Source: a virus. From it: a stretch of DNA of 32,568 nucleotides. The notes under the pieces are model-generated. The model searched no databases, was not told where the DNA came from, and saw nothing but the letters and a program-made list of their open reading frames with translations. This document shows, piece after piece, positions 3,005 through 31,959 of this stretch (position 1 is the first letter of the stretch; the number at the start of each line of letters is the position of its first letter). Made by a program: the position numbers and the translations under genes. Location of the stretch: the IMG/VR virus record IMGVR_UViG_3300036466_000103, positions 64,001-96,568 of that record. One strand, given 5' to 3'.

Positions 3005-3556
3005 ATGAACAACGAAATCGCAGTTTCATTTGCTTCCCTGGTAAAATCCAATAACGGTTTCTTTAAATCTGAAAAGCAATCAGCTTTCCTGCTCTCCAAA
3101 TGCCAGGATACAAACACTTTTGTTTGTGGTGGGAATGTCTATAATAATTCCTTCACAATGTTCTACATCTGCGATTCCATGGGCGTGGTCGCGGTTGAAA
3201 AGTATACAACTAAATCTGGTAAGACTGTCACCACCTGGGAGCGTCAGACAGAGGAACAATATCAAGCAAACCTGGCTGCCGAGGAAGCGTCCAAAGTCCG
3301 TGACATTGCTTTACAGGAAGCTCAAATGGCTAAGTTTCAAACTCGCCAGGATGCTTTCAACAAAGCCCTCCTGATAGCACAAGAGATTGTTAAGGGTGAG
3401 ATGATGAAAGCCGGTACTGACGAAGGTATGGCCTACCGCGCTGTGTCCCGTATCCTCAAGGATCAAGATGGAATAGCATCTTGCATGGAAGTCCTGGTTA
3501 ATTTCCCCGAGTTTGTAGCAGCCTGGGAAGCATACAACAACGAACCTGGTCAGTAA
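3005..3556 (+). CDS. Hypothetical protein with coiled-coil middle (183 aa)
   Basis: The start at ATG 3005 follows GAAGGGAG; the open frame extends upstream but overlaps the promoter. Residues 1-60 look like a globular domain of alternating hydrophobic strands (TFVCGGNVYNNSFTMFYICD). Residues 75-130 form a long charged helix (ERQTEEQYQANLAAEEASKV) likely to be a coiled coil. The C-terminus is helical. No family recognised. It is alone in its transcription unit. Confidence 0.8.
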   Translation: MNNEIAVSFASLVKSNNGFFKSEKQSAFLLSKCQDTNTFVCGGNVYNNSFTMFYICDSMGVVAVEKYTTKSGKTVTTWERQTEEQYQANLAAEEASKVRDIALQEAQMAKFQTRQDAFNKALLIAQEIVKGEMMKAGTDEGMAYRAVSRILKDQDGIASCMEVLVNFPEFVAAWEAYNNEPGQ

Positions 3557-3630
3557 TGGTAAAAAGGTAGACAGCAGGAAAATATAAGCTACTATATAGT
3601 AGCTTTCTTATATCTGTAACACTACATACA

Positions 3631-22743: not shown

Positions 22744-24018
22744 ATGTGTACACTCGGTGTAGAAGATGAGGAATCAGAAGAAAGAGAGGAAATCAACACA
22801 AAGCTGCTAGCGTATGACATCCGTATCATACCGGAGGTTAGCGGTAAAGTAAGGTGGTGGGATTACACAGACAAAACTGTCCTAGGTGTTCTGGTTTGCA
22901 ATCTTATTTCTTGTATTACTAAATGTTCCATCCTTGTGTACAGTCGAGATAAGAATGGAGCAAAAGGAAAGAGAAAGATAACGGCAAGATCAGTGATAAA
23001 ATGTGTTGACTGGTTGGAGCAACAAGGGTACATTATCAACCATGTTGCAAAGCCTCAACCAAGGAAGGAAAAGAGAACAATCAGTTGGATACAGCCGACA
23101 GAGAAATTCACTAACGAATTCCCTAAGAAAGAGACAAGAAAGAAATCAGAGAAAGTCTATGTCCACTCTGTGCCATGTGTTGAGGTTAGAGGCAAAGACA
23201 AGAAACCCATGGTTTATGTAGAAACCGAATATTCAAAATCAGTTGAGAGAGGAGTTAGGAAATTGAACGAAGAACTGGATCAAGCAAGCATTGTGGATGT
23301 ACAGGGTAACGAGCTGACAAACATTTACTGCCGGCTGTTTAATGAATCATTTGATAACGGCGGTCGTTGGTATCGTGCAGGCATTCTGAGTGTGCGGAAC
23401 AAGATTGATAGCGCCCGTATGCGTATCAAGATCAATGATGAGAGTGTTGTAGAGGCTGACTACTCAAACCTCCACTTCCGTATCGTTGCAGCCCTCAATG
23501 GTGTGGGTGGTGCATCACTCCCATATGACATCTACGAAGGTATCCAGCAAGACAGTACAAACTACACAGAACGTGCAATCGTAAAGCATGCAGTGAATGT
23601 CATGTTCAATGTAAAGAATGCAAATGCAGCAGCTCTGGCTGTCAATGCTTTCATCAATGCCGTACCATTCTATGACAAACCAATGAATGGTCTTGGCTGG
23701 GGTAAAGTGATCGTAGAGGCTGTTGAGGAGAAATATGAGGAATTCAAACACTGGTTCTACAACCCTGAGTTCTCAGCTCTGAAGATCCAAAAGCATGATA
23801 GTGACCTTGCTGCTGATGTGATTGAAAAGCTTCTGGACAAGCGCATTGCTGTACTACCAATCCACGATGCCTTCATCTGCCAAGATAAACATATGGACTT
23901 CCTCATGGATACTATGGGAAAATGCTTCCGTCAGCGTTTCAACCACGATGGGCTGATTCCAATTGGTGTTAAATACCTGGAAAATGATCGAGTGACAGAA
24001 CAAAAGGTATTGGTGTAG
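22744..24018 (+). CDS. Family-A-like polymerase, TV-Pol type, with N-terminal winged helix (424 aa)
   Basis: Three motifs of the superfamily-A polymerase palm and fingers are visible. Motif A is VEADYSNLHFRI with Asp239. A motif-B-like helix is RAIVKHAVNVMFN with Arg277 and Lys281. Motif C is LPIHDAF with His374-Asp375. The order and the short length without a 3'-5' exonuclease domain match the minimal 'TV-Pol' family described from mobile elements and viruses, proposed to prime and extend DNA. Residues about 60-110 (KRKITARSVIKCVDWLEQQG) resemble a winged helix, and residues 110-160 are a basic linker. The start is weakly supported: AGGAG lies ten bases upstream. Likely replication initiation or polymerisation; activity is inferred. 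Confidence 0.75.
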   Translation: MCTLGVEDEESEEREEINTKLLAYDIRIIPEVSGKVRWWDYTDKTVLGVLVCNLISCITKCSILVYSRDKNGAKGKRKITARSVIKCVDWLEQQGYIINHVAKPQPRKEKRTISWIQPTEKFTNEFPKKETRKKSEKVYVHSVPCVEVRGKDKKPMVYVETEYSKSVERGVRKLNEELDQASIVDVQGNELTNIYCRLFNESFDNGGRWYRAGILSVRNKIDSARMRIKINDESVVEADYSNLHFRIVAALNGVGGASLPYDIYEGIQQDSTNYTERAIVKHAVNVMFNVKNANAAALAVNAFINAVPFYDKPMNGLGWGKVIVEAVEEKYEEFKHWFYNPEFSALKIQKHDSDLAADVIEKLLDKRIAVLPIHDAFICQDKHMDFLMDTMGKCFRQRFNHDGLIPIGVKYLENDRVTEQKVLV

Positions 24019-24033
24019 AGTGTACATACATCC

Positions 24034-24137
24034 TACAAGCTCCTGTGAGGCGTTCTGAGAGCTTCTAGAGCAAAAGACAATACTTGGTTAGGGTTTATTA
24101 ATTAAACGTCTTACAAAGCCTCACAAGAGCTTGTAGG
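24034..24137. repeat. 20-bp inverted repeat with AT-rich loop
   Basis: CCTACAAGCTCCTGTGAGGC (24034-24053) faces GCCTCACAAGAGCTTGTAGG (24118-24137); 19 of 20 positions pair. The 64-nt interior contains the palindrome GTTTATTAATTAAAC. A third partial copy (AAGCTCTTGTGAGGC) lies at 22283-22297, upstream of the polymerase gene, so the repeats flank that gene. There is no U-tract, so it is not a normal terminator. Confidence 0.75.
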
Positions 24138-24161
24138 CTAATACACAATCGGAGATTTAAG

Positions 24162-24389
24162 ATGAATGATGGAATTATGTACGTTTGGAATGTGATTGGT
24201 GATTACAGCGGTGTCACTCTACATTCGTGTGTAAGTAAAGATACTGCTGAGTACATGCGTGATTGGTGTGACGCAATCTCGGAAGACAATTATCGACAGA
24301 TGCTTTCTCGAATAGGTAAGGAGTACCGACCAGAAACAAAGTCAAATATTTTTATGTTTTCAATCGAAGAAGGAGAAGTAATTCTGTGA
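24162..24389 (+). CDS. Small hypothetical protein (75 aa)
   Basis: ATG 24162 after CGGAGATTTAAG. MNDGIMYVWNVIGDYSGVTL, then a charged helix (TAEYMRDWCDAISEDNYRQM). Overlaps the next gene by four bases (GTGA). No family recognised. Confidence 0.7.
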   Translation: MNDGIMYVWNVIGDYSGVTLHSCVSKDTAEYMRDWCDAISEDNYRQMLSRIGKEYRPETKSNIFMFSIEEGEVIL

Positions 24390-24586
24390 CGCATTGCAAT
24401 AGTGATTTCAACCAATCTTATAACTTTCATGGCGGCGCTGTACTGGCTGACTCCACATGTGGCTCTCTAAGCCTCTATAGCGCTTCTGGAGACGTTTTAA
24501 ACATCAGCCTAGACCATGACCCAGAATTCACCATGTCAGGTTTGTATGAGCCTACAGATGCTTCTGTCGATTATTACTATAATTGA
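24386..24586 (+). CDS. Small hypothetical protein, GTG start (66 aa)
   Basis: The GTGA overlap with the previous gene sets the start; GAAGGAGAAG (24367-24376) is the ribosome site. Ser/Asp/Tyr-rich (GGAVLADSTCGSLSLYSASG; ends SVDYYYN). Acidic, probably beta-rich. No family recognised. Confidence 0.65.
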   Translation: MTHCNSDFNQSYNFHGGAVLADSTCGSLSLYSASGDVLNISLDHDPEFTMSGLYEPTDASVDYYYN

Positions 24587-24605
24587 TGCACCTAACACGG
24601 TTGTA

Positions 24606-24634
24606 TTGACAATTACTGATTATTATAATAAAGT
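24606..24634 (+). promoter_or_regulatory. Sigma70-type promoter
   Basis: TGTATTGACA with -35 TTGACA (24606-24611), 17-nt spacer, -10 TAAAGT (24629-24634). A better TATAAT at 24624 is too close to the -35. The TGTATTGACA box recurs at 24977 and 30087, and GGTATTGACA occurs at 28863. Confidence 0.6.
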
Positions 24635-24670
24635 AATTCTTTTAACCAATAGCTAAGAGGATTACCCAGT

Positions 24671-24868
24671 GTGAAAAGGACAACTAGTTATGAAGATGTA
24701 ATGAGAGCTTTACAAGAGCAAGTGGCATATGACGAGTATCTGGATAAGTGCGAATGTGTTGACATTATCTATGAACAAGAGTCTAATGCAAACTTCAAAA
24801 TGGAATACGCTCATGAGAGCCTTACAGAAAGAAAATCAGTTTATCGTCGGAGGATGAGTAATGTTTAA
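24671..24868 (+). CDS. Small hypothetical protein, GTG start (65 aa)
   Basis: GTG 24671 with AGAGGA upstream. MKRTTSYEDVMRALQEQVAY, acidic-helical middle, basic end (TERKSVYRRRMSNV). Overlaps the next ATG by eight bases. No family recognised. Confidence 0.65.
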   Translation: MKRTTSYEDVMRALQEQVAYDEYLDKCECVDIIYEQESNANFKMEYAHESLTERKSVYRRRMSNV

Positions 24869-24968
24869 ATTTGAAGAGTATGAAGGTCTTACACCAGTTG
24901 GTTTTGGGGATAGCATTGGTAGTCAAGAGCTTGATTTTGACTTGTTTAACGAAGAAGATTGGATTTAA
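24861..24968 (+). CDS. Acidic mini-protein (35 aa)
   Basis: ATG 24861 has a good ribosome site, CGGAGG, eight bases upstream. Very acidic 35-residue product (MFKFEEYEGLTPVGFGDSIG...NEEDWI). Its short length is offset by the ribosome site and overlap coupling. Confidence 0.55.
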   Translation: MFKFEEYEGLTPVGFGDSIGSQELDFDLFNEEDWI

Positions 24969-24979
24969 TAAATATTGTA

Positions 24980-25017
24980 TTGACATTGGAAGGCGATTCG
25001 CTTATAATGGGCGAATC
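24980..25017 (+). promoter_or_regulatory. Consensus promoter with inverted repeat over the -10
   Basis: A perfect TTGACA (24980-24985), 17-nt spacer and TATAAT (25003-25008), the best promoter in the window. The -10 lies inside an inverted repeat, GATTCGC (24995-25001) / GCGAATC (25011-25017). That repeat could be an operator or the 5' hairpin of the RNA. It reads toward the tRNA and the structured RNA locus. Confidence 0.85.
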
Positions 25018-25153
25018 AGAATTAAAGAGGCACTTCCCTTACTGATTTATTGGTGCATGGCCTCTCCTCCATAGTATCAGGTGATGTAAGGGATTGCTTG
25101 TCCATGATGTGAAGTTAGTGTATATTGGCCTTCCATGTTGTGGCAACAAATTA

Positions 25154-25230
25154 GGGTCTTTAGCATAATTGGATAATGCTGTCTGCTCATAACAGATAAG
25201 ATGCGGGATCATACCCCGTGGGACTCACCA
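25154..25230 (+). tRNA. tRNA with CAT anticodon (Met or Ile2)
   Basis: A full 77-nt cloverleaf with encoded CCA. Acceptor GGGTCTT/GGGACTC; D stem GCAT/ATGC; anticodon stem GTCTG/CAGAT with loop CTCATAA (anticodon 25188-25190); T stem GCGGG/CCCGT. CAT could read AUG, or AUA if C34 becomes lysidine. It lacks initiator features. The T loop is ATCATAC instead of TTCnAAT: bases 54 and 58 are swapped to A and T, so a 54-58 pair remains possible. Confidence 0.9.
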
Positions 25231-25247
25231 AATTATCGGAAGTATTT

Positions 25248-25415
25248 ATGCAAGTAAAGTCTCGTGTTCGTAATCGTAAGATAGAGTATACAAAACGGCA
25301 TGGTTGTTCTCTTCTGGGAACCCAGTGGAAGTATAAAGAGAGCGCTATACATAGCGCAGAGTTAAAAGAAGCTGATGTTTATATAAGGAGCTACAAAGAT
25401 GTCGAAAGTATATGA
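25248..25415 (+). CDS. Small basic protein (55 aa)
   Basis: ATG 25248 after CGGAAG, 17 bases past the tRNA. MQVKSRVRNRKIEYTKRHGC: strongly basic first third, then mixed. Overlaps the next gene by 17 bases. Possibly nucleic-acid binding; no family recognised. Confidence 0.65.
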   Translation: MQVKSRVRNRKIEYTKRHGCSLLGTQWKYKESAIHSAELKEADVYIRSYKDVESI

Positions 25416-25539
25416 TGCTACCACCGAACACAAGATGATTGAGAAAGGCAAGGACAAACCTAAAGGTAGTGCGAAAGGCACTCACCCTAACAAGGGCATC
25501 AAAGGTAAGAATCCTTACTCTGGTAAGGTGGTGTCTTGA
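25399..25539 (+). CDS. Small Lys/Gly-rich protein (46 aa)
   Basis: ATG 25399 behind TAAGGAG. After MSKVYDATTEHKMIEKGKDK comes a low-complexity basic tail (PKGSAKGTHPNKGIKGKNPY). It looks disordered and nucleic-acid-binding. Overlaps the next TTG by four bases. Confidence 0.65.
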   Translation: MSKVYDATTEHKMIEKGKDKPKGSAKGTHPNKGIKGKNPYSGKVVS

Positions 25540-25661
25540 TTACAAAGATTGTTCTGGATAAAGACAATCGAATGCTTCGATTAGGACTTGGTAAGCACGA
25601 TGGTAAATGGTTCTTCCGAGTTGATTTGTGGACTACTGGTTATCGGATTGCAAAGAAATAA
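25536..25661 (+). CDS. Small hypothetical protein, TTG start (41 aa)
   Basis: TTG 25536 overlaps the previous TGA (TTGA). The product (M)ITKIVLDKDNRMLRLGLGKH...WFFRVDLWTTGYRIAKK is a compact strand-rich basic protein. The start codon is rare, but the coupling and the clear stop just before the RNA locus support it. Confidence 0.55.
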   Translation: MITKIVLDKDNRMLRLGLGKHDGKWFFRVDLWTTGYRIAKK

Positions 25662-26280
25662 ACGCCTGGGTTAAATCGTCAGCAGGTTAATAGCACCACT
25701 GAAGATCCAGGGGTAAAATAGAGTATGAGACGGCTGCTTAGGTAAAGTTTCATATTTCGGGTTTGGTAGTACCTTAAAATTACCAAGATCTGGCCTAGAG
25801 CCCTGTTGTAGAGGTTGGTAAACCAACATTCAAGCGTGAAGATGCTTGTCTAGTAGCCGAAAGGCATAGTCGTGAACTGTGACGATAAAGTCCTCGCGCA
25901 GATCAATCATAGAGGTTGGCACGGGGCAATGAATTTAGTGAGGCTAGGTTTTATGCCAGCGACCCAATTAAGGCTTGCTTAGTTATGGTGAGACTCACGT
26001 TTAATTTGTTCTGTATTGTCATTTGTGGCATGCAGACGCAACAAAGAGAGACCAGCTTGTGTTGCCAAGGTGGATGCTCCTTTAGAGGACTCCATATTCT
26101 CTCGTATTCAGGTAGAAAGACAGCACTTACTGTCCGCCTGAGATGTGTTCAAAGCATCAAGCTACCACGGGTTGACCAACGTGGATTAATAGCAGAGTGA
26201 GATAAACGTACAGCTCATTATTGGAAATCAATTTAATCATAACCTCTACGTATTCGAAAGAAACGCACCAAGAGGTTTAT

Positions 26281-26356
26281 CTGCCCTTAGTGTTCAACGG
26301 TAGCACACCTCGTTTGGGACGAGGAAGAGAAAGTTCGAAACTTTCAGGGCTGACCA
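26281..26356 (+). tRNA. tRNA-Pro(TGG)
   Basis: A 76-nt cloverleaf with CCA. Acceptor CTGCCCT/AGGGCTG with one T2-T71 mismatch; D stem GTGT/GCAC; anticodon stem CCTCG/CGAGG with loop TTTGGGA (anticodon 26315-26317, G37); T stem GAAAG/CTTTC with loop TTCGAAA. C1-G72 with A73 fits bacterial proline tRNA. It lies in the middle of the structured noncoding locus, directly after the AACCTCT/AGAGGTT helix. Confidence 0.92.
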
Positions 26357-26715
26357 ATTTAACTCCTGATCAGCGTAAAGAAAACAGCCACGGTGTGAGG
26401 GTTCTGCGCCTGGTATTCCTTCGGGTAGGCTGGGGTAAAAGTCCTCACAGGCAACCTTTGAATTAGAGTGATTGTGGAAAGCGCAGGCTTAGCAGCCGTC
26501 TAGCAAGGTTCGATGCCGTGCCGTGCCACTCAACAAGCTAGTCCGGGTCGTGTCCCGTAAAAGAAAGAGATGCACTTAGCTGCATCCGACTAAACAAACA
26601 ATTACCCGACAAGGAATTGTAGGCAAACCAGACACCAATAGGTGCAGCCAACCAACCTATAATAAGGTCGAGCCAGTGTGCGGTAATGGGTAAGTATGGT
26701 TTAACGTAACAACAG

Positions 26716-26742
26716 AAGCCCGGCCTTAGTGTCGGGCTTTTT
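26716..26742 (+). terminator. Intrinsic terminator of the RNA locus
   Basis: AAGCCCG (26716-26722), 10-nt loop, CGGGCTT (26733-26739), then TTT. It ends the RNA locus 34 bases before the tail-fibre gene. Confidence 0.88.
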
Positions 26743-26775
26743 GCTTTATTAATTTAATCAAAGAGGAAACAAAAT

Positions 26776-28665
26776 ATGGCTATTACAACTCGTGATGAAC
26801 TAGTGGAAGCTCTGGTAGTTGGTGGCATTGTTGGCATTGCTCGTGACGGTGAATTGGATGCGTTGTTTAACCAAGGCAGTGCTGATGTTGATGCTAGCAT
26901 TATTGAGCTGACCCGGGATGTGGCCACAGCGCAATCCACCGCTGATGCCGCCCAGGTTAAATTGGTTCCTGGGTCGAACATCACTATTGATGACACTGAC
27001 CCGCAAGCCCCGGTCATCAGTGCAACTGGTGGCGGGGAAGGTGGCTCTTCTACATGGGGATCAATTACCGGAACTCTTTCGGCCCAGACCGATTTGCAGG
27101 CGGAGCTTGATAGGAATCTGCGAAAGCCTCGCAAGACTTTCAGCAAGCTTTTCAACTCCGCATCTGCCATCAGCCATCTGCGGCTGGCTATTCTTGGTGA
27201 CAGCTTGGCCGGGGCAAAAATGCTTCAGCTCAACGCCTCACTGGATCGCCGGATGGGCGGGGTTAACATGAGTGGCGTCAATAGTTCTGGCACTGCGGAC
27301 GGTACGCCGACTGGTGGCTATGACTTGACGTTGAGCGCTGGCACCCTCGTTACGGCAGAAACGCTCAAATATCAGTATTGGCCTACCGGGCTTGTCAGCC
27401 TGTTCGCCGACGGAGGCTCAGCCACCTGGATACGCAGCGGCTCCTCGCCGACCTTTACTGATGTGAAGGTGTATTACATCAAAGAGCCCTCCGCAGGCAC
27501 GCTGAACCTTTCCGTCGGCGGTAACGTCGTGGCAACCGTCTCCGCTGCCGCTGATGTGACTGGTCTTGGCGTTTTGTCCTACACGCAAGCAGTGGGTACT
27601 TCCGCTGTGCTGACTACCGTTTCTGGTGGACCGGTACGTATCGTCCTTGTGCACACCCGCAATACCACCGTATCCGGTCTTGACCTGTATCAGACCATGA
27701 ACCGTGGCGGACTGTTGTTGGCCGATGCAACGGCATCCGCGCAGGGGCGATCAATCTGGCAGCAGGCACTGACTGACATTAACGCGGACCTCATCACGTT
27801 TGAGATGGACGACGACTTCGGCGATAGCGGCGCTGCGGACGCCTCACTTGCGTTGTTGGTTGGGATTATCGACGCGTCAAGTCCATACGCTGACAAGCTC
27901 TTCATTGGTTCGACTCCTCGTGCGTTGAACGACAATTTGAAAATGCGTTCGTCGCAGTACCTCAAGGAGTTTTGCGGGGCCCAAAACGCCTCTTATCTTT
28001 TCTTTGACAGCTATTACCTGATGGGTACGTATGCTGAGATGGACGCGATTTTCGGCACCGATGACGGTACGCATCCGACTGCAGCGGCTCAGGCTTACGC
28101 CGCAGAAATTCTTTGGGAGTTCTTGGGGCTCAATGGCTTCAACCTCGGTATGACTTCCCGTGCAGTCAATGACCGTGGAACGCCGTCCCGTATGGCGCGT
28201 GGTACGACCATTGGCGACCGCCCTGGCCGTGAAATCTCGATCACCGCTGACGCATCTACTGGGTCTGACTTTGCAATCAACTTAACGCGCTCTCTGGCCG
28301 TCGTGAGAACCGACGGAACGATCCTGCACCGCGTATCAGGTCAGGTTGGCGTTATCTCTAACGTGTTGCCAATGACAACTGACTTCGGGACGGCTGGTGA
28401 CGTCAGGAAGCGTAACGTAGTTACTTCGTCTGGCGTTGAGGTCACTCAGCTAGTTAAGACTGACAACCCTAGTGGCATGCAACACATGCGTATGGGTTTG
28501 ATCTTCAATAGCTTTACACGTGCTCAACTGTTAGCTATTAGCGCATCTAGCAATATTGGAGCGCTGGCATTTTGCTCGGACTGCACAGGTGGTGCGCAGT
28601 GGGTATTCGCAAAGGGATCTAGCGCTACAGATTGGGTAACGGTAGATGGCAAGACGGCCATCTAA
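26776..28665 (+). CDS. Tail fibre / tailspike with SGNH-hydrolase domain (629 aa)
   Basis: Residues 1-115 are a typical fibre attachment part: a helical start, the GSNITIDDTDPQAPVIS stretch, a glycine linker (GGGEGG) and WGSITGTLSAQTDLQAELD. Residues about 134-450 fit an SGNH (GDSL) esterase: LAILGDSLAG with Ser143 in block I, and GTDDGTHPTAAAQ with the Asp430/His433 pair in block V. Such domains deacetylate surface glycans. The last ~170 residues are probably trimeric beta structure. GAGGAAAC precedes the ATG. The gene is far richer in G+C than its neighbours, which marks recent acquisition. Confidence 0.88.
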   Translation: MAITTRDELVEALVVGGIVGIARDGELDALFNQGSADVDASIIELTRDVATAQSTADAAQVKLVPGSNITIDDTDPQAPVISATGGGEGGSSTWGSITGTLSAQTDLQAELDRNLRKPRKTFSKLFNSASAISHLRLAILGDSLAGAKMLQLNASLDRRMGGVNMSGVNSSGTADGTPTGGYDLTLSAGTLVTAETLKYQYWPTGLVSLFADGGSATWIRSGSSPTFTDVKVYYIKEPSAGTLNLSVGGNVVATVSAAADVTGLGVLSYTQAVGTSAVLTTVSGGPVRIVLVHTRNTTVSGLDLYQTMNRGGLLLADATASAQGRSIWQQALTDINADLITFEMDDDFGDSGAADASLALLVGIIDASSPYADKLFIGSTPRALNDNLKMRSSQYLKEFCGAQNASYLFFDSYYLMGTYAEMDAIFGTDDGTHPTAAAQAYAAEILWEFLGLNGFNLGMTSRAVNDRGTPSRMARGTTIGDRPGREISITADASTGSDFAINLTRSLAVVRTDGTILHRVSGQVGVISNVLPMTTDFGTAGDVRKRNVVTSSGVEVTQLVKTDNPSGMQHMRMGLIFNSFTRAQLLAISASSNIGALAFCSDCTGGAQWVFAKGSSATDWVTVDGKTAI

Positions 28666-30177: not shown

Positions 30178-31959
30178 ATGACGGAAGTTAATATGGTGCG
30201 CCCACAATCCCCCTTTCAAGAAAAGTATTTAAAGTCTAATGCTAAGATACTTGTAGTCGGTGGTGCCGCAGGTAGCAGTAAGAGCTACGTTGGTCTTATG
30301 CGGCACCTAAGATGGGCGCATGATCCGAATTACAATGGTTACTGTATTCGAAAGAACAGTACAACATTGATGAAAGCAGGCGGGTTGTTCCAAGAAGCAA
30401 TCGCCCTGTATCAAAAAGTTTATCCTGATTTGAAGATCAAATGGAAAGACCAGAAGTTGGTATTTCCTAGTGGAGCATCTGTATCCTTTTCTCACTATGA
30501 AAATGATGCAGCCGGACAACAGTATCAAGGTCTTCAGTTATCAAATGTCTTTTATGACGAAGCAACACACGCAGCAGAAGAACATATCTGGTGGCTTGTG
30601 TCACGTCTTCGTACAGCAGCAAAACTAAACCCTTCCATCTGGTTATCTTGCAACCCTGACCCTGACAGCTTCTTGTTCGACTGGGTTAAATGGTGGTTGT
30701 ATCCAGAAGGTCATCCACAACACGGTATCCCAGATCCAGAGCGTAACGGAATCACACGATTCTGTCTTCGTATTGCTGGTGATATGGTTTGGGCTGATAG
30801 CCCCGAAGAGTTGATTGAGAAACACGGTAAAAAGGATTTACCAGCAGATCATGAAGATCAAGTTAAGCCAATTGCATTTCAAGTTTTGCTTGGGAATTTA
30901 ACTGATAATCCCACGTTGATGAAGATGCAGCCAGAATACAAGTCCAACCTTGAGGCTTTGCCTGATGTTGAGATGCGTAGACTGCTTCTTGGTGACTGGA
31001 CTGCAAGGGAGGAGGGTAGTACATACTTCCAACGATCCTGGTGTGGTGAGGAAGCCTTAGAGGATCCTCCAGCATCTGAGATTGTTCGTACGGTTAGAGC
31101 GTATGACTTCGCAGGGACATTGAAGTCCTCAGCTAACCCAAGTCCTGACTATACAGCATGTGCAAAGATTAGCAAGCTGAAGTCTGGAGACTATTTCATA
31201 CATGAGATTGTTCGTACACGAATACTGTACGGTGACTGGGAGAGATTCATCCTAGACAACGCACAACGTGATGGGAAGAACTGTGAGATTGTTATCCCGC
31301 TTGATCCTGGTGCATCAGCTAAAGTGGCTACAGCACTCCTCACAAGATCAATTAGTGAGAGAGGTTATAGAGTGAGGACAATGAAGGCTAGCCAATCTAA
31401 GCTTGATCGCTTCCGTCCATTCTCATCTTTGGCTATGAATGGTCACGTTAAGTTCCTTAAAGGATGTTCTACAGACCTTGAGAATAATGTGTACGGGAAC
31501 AACAGTTTCATGTACAGAGAACTTGAAGCCTTCAATGGTAAGAGGCGTGGTGGTGAAGCAGGACATGACGATAAAAACCGGTCGTCAATAAACTTACTTA
31601 ATTCGGTGGAACCCTAAATCATTCGGTTTAGACAATACCGAGCTAGGGCTTATAGATTGTAAGCCTGAGTGTAACGACTATCGAAAGCACATCTTATGAT
31701 GGAAGCAAGTAGAGTACACCCAAGTGGGTGGAAACAGTGAGGACGACCTACATGGGTTGTTAAGATATAGTCTGCTCTGCATGGTGACATGCAGCAGTTC
31801 ATAAGAGAACGGGCAATGTCTAACGAGCATTGTTGAACATAAAGGATCTGTGACTGCATTAGTGACGCTACAGCAATTCTAGCACAAAGAACAATAGTTC
31901 CAAACATGGCAAAGGCATTAGGTAGTATTAACCTAGTAAACAAATCTCCATTTAACTAA
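30178..31959 (+). CDS. terL: Terminase large subunit, split by a group I intron (502 aa spliced)
   Basis: Exon 1 is 30178-31572 (465 codons) and exon 2 is 31846-31959 (37 codons plus stop). The ATPase domain has Walker A GGAAGSSKS (28-36), Walker B VFYDEAT (124-130) and the coupling motif WLSCNPD (155-161). The nuclease domain starts at RAYDFAGT with Asp310, continues at PLDPGAS with Asp376 and ends with GHDD (462-465). Splicing gives GHDD-ICDCISDATAIL, restoring the third conserved acidic cluster of the RNase-H-like nuclease. The protein powers DNA packaging and cuts the genome concatemer. Unspliced translation would end 14 codons into the intron, lacking this motif. Confidence 0.93.
31573..31845 (+). 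ncRNA. Group I self-splicing intron without ORF (273 nt)
   Basis: Exon 1 ends UGACGAU and the intron guide GUCGUCA (31581-31587) pairs with all seven bases, with the U-G wobble at the splice site (P1). P4 TCGGT/ACCGA (31603/31637), P5 CTAAATC/GGTTTAG (31614/31625), P6 GGCTTA/TAAGCC (31647/31660), P7 GACTAT (31676-31681) with ATAGTC (31767-31772) inside the hallmark AAGATATAGTC. P9 is CTGC-GCATG-GTGA-CATGC-GCAG (31772-31797). The last base is G (31845). No homing endonuclease gene is present. Confidence 0.92.

Follow-up and report, generated by a model that had tools for sequence, protein, structure and literature searches.

A stretch of about 1.08 kb in a virus genome raises the question of whether it holds a single giant structured noncoding RNA or a set of smaller elements. 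The stretch lies at positions 25662–26742 of the window, which is the whole 32,568-nucleotide (nt) piece of DNA that we analysed and covers the final 32.6 kb of a virus record of 96.6 kb. The initial annotation proposed it as a candidate for one gene-free giant RNA, GOLLD- or ROOL-like or possibly of a new class, with a proline transfer RNA (tRNA-Pro) embedded in it. Our results indicate that the region is probably a tRNA array alternating with small, separately conserved folded RNAs, and not one giant RNA. By sequence comparison, 25662–26742 is a reduced homologue of the tRNA arrays of other phages, in which most of the tRNAs have been lost or scrambled.

Comparison of the region with phage genomes by blastn returned short separate matches and no single long one. 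These comprised the tRNA-Pro, 24 nt identical in Pseudomonas phage vB_PpS_SYP, 34 nt in psageK4, and a stretch of about 45 nt matched in hundreds of T4-like records. The 24-nt stretch was used as the search key in IMG/VR, and the records behind the matches were then read, which gave 13 homologous loci from phages mostly of about 97–107 kb, including SYP and the Otagovirus psageK4. All 13 are tRNA arrays, with 5–20 tRNAs each as identified by ARAGORN, and tRNA-Pro was present in every homologous array examined. The relatives carry tRNA-Gly, tRNA-Asn, tRNA-Asp and tRNA-Tyr, which are absent from the window. In the closest locus (L175) the order is syntenic: tRNA-Met, a small open reading frame (ORF), module D, tRNA-Pro, module C, tRNA-Ser, module H, hairpin F, module A and terminator. 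Identity between this locus and the window is 97% for tRNA-Met, 84% for module D and 77% for tRNA-Pro, and the ORF after the terminator begins with ATGGCTATT in both. Most of the 99 contigs retrieved with TTACCCGACAAGGAA matched by chance in unrelated contexts, and only about 13 of them have the match at a tRNA-array end; most of the 69 matches to GATAAACGTACAGCY were likewise due to chance. The conserved segments of the region are as follows.

25663–25713, plus strand: module B, an outer stem over the invariant core GTCAGCAGGTTAATAGCACCACTGAA, with inner hairpins; also in L179, VCM and Pyxpy01.
26160–26226, plus strand: core of module D, a stem around a CCACG/CGTGG hairpin and a second hairpin with the loop ATAAACGTACAG.
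26359–26465, plus strand: module C, a small hairpin followed by a variable outer stem around GTGAGGGTTCTGC, a GGGG-TAARAGT-CCYC hairpin and an RACC tail.
26539–26592, plus strand: module H, a TAGTC/GACTA stem enclosing two hairpins, from the window compared with L175.
26598–26621, plus strand: hairpin F, ACAATTACCCGACAAGGAATTGTA, unchanged ahead of the terminator in 13 arrays.
26649–26694, plus strand: module A, a covarying outer stem with one bulge, an ACCT/AGGT hairpin and a second short hairpin (model expect value, E, 5e-19).

Covariation supports the view that modules A, B, C and D each fold as a discrete RNA. Measured against a shuffle control that leaves sequence relatedness in, the covariation counts are strong, although not phylogenetically controlled: all 5 outer-stem pairs of module C were compensatory (0.413 versus 0.113 ± 0.030 shuffled, 0/500; 15 distinct sequences), as were 4 of 4 in module A (0.446 versus 0.126 ± 0.029; 17 sequences) and 4 of 14 pairs in module B (0.357 versus 0.126; 4 sequences). 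In module D, 7 of 15 pairs were compensatory and 98.6% of cells were paired across 5 sequences. One hairpin of module H was changed on both sides at 3 pairs, in a comparison of two sequences only. Hairpin F is invariant and hence beyond covariation testing; its inner 15 nt are the search key, and its outer 9 nt are independent of the key. The initial annotation had named a lack of covariation among homologues as evidence against an RNA. This outcome did not come true, because several segments covary strongly, so that the RNA is real and its architecture differs from the one proposed.

The covariance model of module C matched the window at 26384–26456 (E 3e-13). Its 13-nt loop sequence and the GGGG-TAARAGT-CCYC hairpin are nearly invariant. 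Outside the training set, the model found a copy in Pyxpy01 directly before tRNA-Ser (E 1.8e-4, with background from about E 1.8), and a divergent copy in L185/G010 replaces the hairpin with a compensated one, GCAG-TAAGAGT-CTGC. Of the phage records that module C matched in blastn, 33 are from Pseudomonas phages and one is from a Pectobacterium phage. It usually stands shortly before tRNA-Ser; no tRNA-Ser lies behind it in the window, L178, L179, L189 and L192, and the core is kept. A pseudoknot, GTGAGGG:TCCYCAC, was less consistent than the local hairpins, with an A·C mismatch in 10 of 15 sequences, and the L185 copy favours the hairpins. A second divergent copy at about 25833–25905, suspected by eye from the resemblance of ATAAAGTCCTCGCGCAG to GGTAAAAGTCCTCACAGG, scored at best about 0 bits with the unfiltered model and was rejected.

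Module A reaches far beyond the arrays. Searching with a 45-nt probe gave matches in 1,175 phage records (E up to 10); in 1,009 of these the match covered 80% or more of the probe. The matches include T4, Vequintavirinae, Phapecoctavirus, a Vibrio phage and Rheinheimera phages. The T4 copy lies at 64856–64901 of NC_000866, on the minus strand. Among 84,980 cellular genomes the exact pattern was found in one contig, from a metagenome-assembled genome, and the covariance model had no match in phiKZ. The element occupies the vs.8 leader in T4-like phages, a position before a small gene in V5-like phages, and a place in a 45-kb siphovirus; it is also found inside the tRNA cluster of phiWec190 and, elsewhere, in phages without a nearby tRNA. 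Two phages carry it in tandem upstream of vs.8, an arrangement that resembles some regulatory RNAs and riboswitches.

L264, 995–1040 and 1108–1151: tandem module A of Edwardsiella phage PEi26.
L268, 884–929 and 998–1041: tandem module A of the related, unannotated Enterobacter phage EcL8g.

As a separate observation, module A of T4 falls within the annotated start of vs.8 (L005 4254–4913, that is, NC_000866 64253–64912), whereas the gene of relatives begins downstream of the element. The vs.8 start of T4 is thus probably annotated too far upstream, judging from this comparison.

The modules also differ in where they occur. Homology of module D spans 26106–26237 and extends to L175, L176, L177 and L190. 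Module D is found without module E, a spacer module of the form ATTCGTA(G/T)AAA...AACAATAGCGAACGGGG that is absent from the window, in L177; module E is found without module D in L178 and L180. Module B precedes tRNA-Met in L179, stands between tRNA-Pro and tRNA-Ala in VCM and Pyxpy01, and follows small ORFs in the window. Such independent occurrence, together with the differing tRNA neighbours, argues for a mosaic of short RNAs.

None of modules A–D, F and H matched a family in Rfam 15, and the only Rfam matches in the window array and the 13 homologous loci (the latter at gathering thresholds) were tRNAs. A weak rnk_pseudo match at 26658–26750 (26.9 bits; threshold 55) was mostly the terminator hairpin. 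Most of the records examined annotate nothing at the modules; in some, a predicted hypothetical protein spans module A. The literature search, limited to an open library, returned no paper dealing with module A or a vs.8/denV RNA, and publications beyond it could describe some of the modules. They appear to be undescribed families of a known kind, namely small RNAs in phage tRNA clusters, and one of the families is very widespread. Such clusters are usually annotated as tRNAs with empty spacers, and here several spacers hold conserved RNAs; at least four of these covary (two on only 4–5 sequences) and are absent from Rfam 15.

The remaining features of the locus place the modules between a predicted promoter and a terminator.

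24980–25008, plus strand: predicted sigma-70-like promoter, TTGACA-17-TATAAT, with 12 of 12 consensus positions (scan of 24000–27500).
25154–25230, plus strand: tRNA with a CAT anticodon (Met or Ile2), the first of the array (ARAGORN; Infernal 43 bits).
25399–25539, plus strand: ORF of 46 amino acids (PHROG 11200, E 1.9e-11).
25536–25661, plus strand: ORF of 41 amino acids (PHROG 38838, E 1e-12), related to PHIKZ293.1.
25714–26105, plus strand: noncoding stretch of about 390 nt, with the lowest single folding z-score (−2.69, at 25701–25850).
26281–26356, plus strand: tRNA-Pro(TGG) (ARAGORN; Infernal 36 bits).
26466–26531, plus strand: tRNA-like remnant of 66 nt, which occupies the tRNA-Ser position of L175 in the alignment and has GTGCC tandemly duplicated in its 3' half.
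26714–26741, plus strand: intrinsic terminator with 11 pairs and a T-run; the terminator of L175 is in the equivalent position.

Several elements of the initial annotation are borne out by this layout: the intact embedded tRNA-Pro, the CAT tRNA upstream, the promoter ahead of it and the intrinsic terminator. A GNRA hairpin, GCC-GAAA-GGC near 25860, could be read directly from the sequence. The region was also said to lack genes, and the two ORFs tested within it (25916–26200 and 26221–26466) had no PHROG match. The tRNA model recognised a cloverleaf at 25154–25230 and 26281–26356 and nowhere else in 25000–26900. Both small ORFs ahead of the region have counterparts elsewhere. The DNA of the first is 62–72% identical at the equivalent position inside the arrays of 9 relatives, and the second is 69% identical to phiKZ by blastn, where PHIKZ293.1 likewise adjoins a tRNA gene.

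On this basis, we consider it fairly probable that the stretch makes up the 3' two thirds of a single phage operon of about 1.6–1.75 kb, made of tRNAs and small structured RNAs, and the array transcript probably begins at the promoter at 24980–25008. What sequence comparison shows is the homology, the synteny, the folds and the conservation; transcription, cutting, stability and action through the loops are what we infer. The array would be transcribed from the promoter ahead of tRNA-Met to the terminator at 26741. A tRNA inside a transcript is cut there by ribonuclease P (RNase P), a step required for maturation of tRNA-Pro. Cuts at tRNA-Pro, made by RNase P of the host and the nucleases that process tRNA 3' ends, would yield an upstream RNA of about 620 nt and a downstream RNA of about 385 nt. 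By analogy with T4, which frees RNA C and RNA D, further cutting might release the modules as small stable RNAs. With less confidence, we propose that the invariant loops would be the working parts that bind a protein or RNA partner within the infected cell, and that the variable stems would merely present them. Candidate working loops are TAARAGT and GGTTCTGC in module C, ATAAACGTACAG in module D, RTAAYA and CGGTAA in module A, and CCCGACAAGG in hairpin F.

Tentatively, the mosaic and autonomous array RNAs may act in trans during infection and may spread and reshuffle as tRNA genes do, with module A being phage-wide and shared with T4 and many T4-like phages. They could, with the same reserve, serve as protein-binding decoys or regulate translation or tRNA-directed host defence, to name examples. 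Several points weigh against the proposed operon of tRNAs and small structured RNAs. The samples are small for module B (4 sequences), module D (five) and module H (two). The stretch of about 390 nt at 25714–26105 had no homologue in the blastn comparisons (25712–26110) and could be part of a larger RNA. Finally, two incompatible pairings of the invariant loop of module C are possible, one with local hairpins and one with a loop-to-3' pseudoknot.

Among other explanations, the modules might be cis-acting spacers or processing signals that insulate the tRNAs and guide RNase P, RNase E or RNase III, with no later role. Consistent with this, tRNA arrays were the only setting in which modules B, C, D, F and H were observed, module C stands mostly shortly upstream of tRNA-Ser, and hairpin F lies ahead of the terminator in 13 arrays. 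However, module A is also present at a distance from tRNAs, in the leader of vs.8 in T4-like phages and in the 45-kb siphovirus, module C persists after loss of tRNA-Ser, and the invariant loops show more specificity than a spacer would need. Taken together, we regard this explanation as unlikely, if still a serious one.

We judge it somewhat less probable again that module A is a cis-regulatory leader element that binds a ligand or a protein, its copy before the terminator being a second use. In T4-like phages the element lies roughly 15–130 nt before the next gene (vs.8), it is compact with invariant loops, and the tandem copies in PEi26 and EcL8g are riboswitch-like. On the other hand, the copies in the window and L175 end about 20–30 nt before the terminator and share no pairing strand with it, as read directly from the sequence, and no conserved gene follows the element in Barba12A, phiWec190 and fEg-Eco19. 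The presence of module A in T4 makes its role testable in the most tractable phage.

GOLLD assembles into a 14-mer cage, and the region could in principle be one giant RNA of a new class, a GOLLD- or ROOL-like self-assembling cage with tRNA-Pro in its linker. Support for the many local helices claimed for the region is weaker than that claim implies: folding was stronger than in the rest of the window (mean z −1.14 in 13 region windows versus −0.39 in 141 outside; Mann-Whitney p = 0.008), but only modestly so in single-sequence folding, and the unassigned 25714–26105 leaves room for a larger RNA. However, the 600-nt closing pair that had been proposed, GGCACGG (25918) with CCGTGCC (copies at 26516 and 26521), was within chance and not conserved. 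The region contains 28 exact 7-base-pair pairings at least 300 nt apart, compared with 18.5 ± 6.3 in dinucleotide shuffles, and CCGTGCC falls at the position of the intact tRNA-Ser of the nearest relative. No conserved long-range pairing was found, and among the relatives the gain, loss and placement of a module depend neither on the other modules nor on tRNA-Pro. Neither the GOLLD nor the ROOL model matched at E up to 5 in 25000–26900, or at gathering thresholds in the window and the 13 homologous arrays, contrary to the relationship that had been suggested. GOLLD RNAs are phage-borne, lie near tRNA islands and sometimes carry tRNAs embedded in a linker (PMC12286853). The window locus is also phage-borne and tRNA-associated, but it has independent modules in place of a single conserved scaffold. 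ROOL shares with it a phage-borne, structured character and a position near tRNA islands, and differs in that short homologous modules are found here rather than one RNA. A structured, tRNA-associated, phage-borne noncoding RNA locus outside Rfam is retained from the initial annotation; the single giant RNA is very improbable.

Least probable of all is that the spacer structure consists mostly of decayed tRNAs left over from lost genes: 26466–26531 lies at the tRNA-Ser place of L175 and the tRNA-Gly, Asn, Asp and Tyr of the relatives are missing in the window, but neither that remnant nor modules A, B, C and D matched a tRNA model at E ≤ 5, and modules A–D retain invariant loops and compensatory pairing, the reverse of what decay would produce, although such an origin is possible for parts of 25714–26105.

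The mosaic of short RNAs has counterparts in other phages. RNA C and RNA D of T4 (species 1 and 2) are likewise small noncoding RNAs within a phage tRNA cluster; they are late RNAs of unknown function, detected by Northern blot (PMC9697503). The array modules differ in being shorter, several and mosaic, and the T4 copy of module A lies elsewhere, at the annotated vs.8 start. When 25100–26800 was compared by blastn with all loci, including the T4 cluster (L005), neither rnaC nor rnaD was matched at E ≤ 1. The modules give the long-standing question of what RNA C and RNA D do a concrete point of comparison. Noncoding RNAs detected by Grad-seq in phiKZ are small and processed, one of about 100 nt coming from a 3' untranslated region with a terminator stem (PMC8545117); the likeness to the proposed modules is that of small processed phage RNAs.

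Other tRNA-related structures were observed in the relatives. Between tRNA-Asn and tRNA-Asp, L179 (reverse complement, about 3271–3400) and L180 (about 2370–2495) carry tRNA-like RNAs whose acceptor stem and T-arm are normal and in which an enlarged middle replaces the D/anticodon domain; RNA C of T4 also ends in a T-arm-like sequence. Upstream of tRNA-Tyr in L175 (reverse complement, about 3500–3575), a T-arm, a TCTGGTG/CACCGGA hairpin and a D-arm follow in series, the order of a circularly permuted tRNA, which may be a chance juxtaposition of fragments. Two recurring spacer modules are absent from the window: TGAAAAGG...AAACGCGAT follows tRNA-Pro in L177, L178 and L188, and ATTCGTA(G/T)AAA...AACAATAGCGAACGGGGTATACGCCCC, with a T-arm-like hairpin, stands before tRNA-Pro or tRNA-Tyr in L175, L176, L178 and L180.

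Downstream of the array, the tail protein gene at 26776–28665 has a start region that is conserved in the homologous arrays, directly 3' of the terminator. Residues 105–629 of the protein share about 79% identity with other virus contigs and the first 104 or so are unmatched there, which suggests a mosaic fibre. Relatives of this 629-residue protein showed no homologous region (blastn at E ≤ 0.01 was empty) and no tRNA. Further along, a Group I intron (RF00028, 54 bits) lies at 31499–31794, at the 3' end of the terminase large-subunit ORF (30178–31617), and short parts of it are 94–96% identical in many enterobacterial phages.
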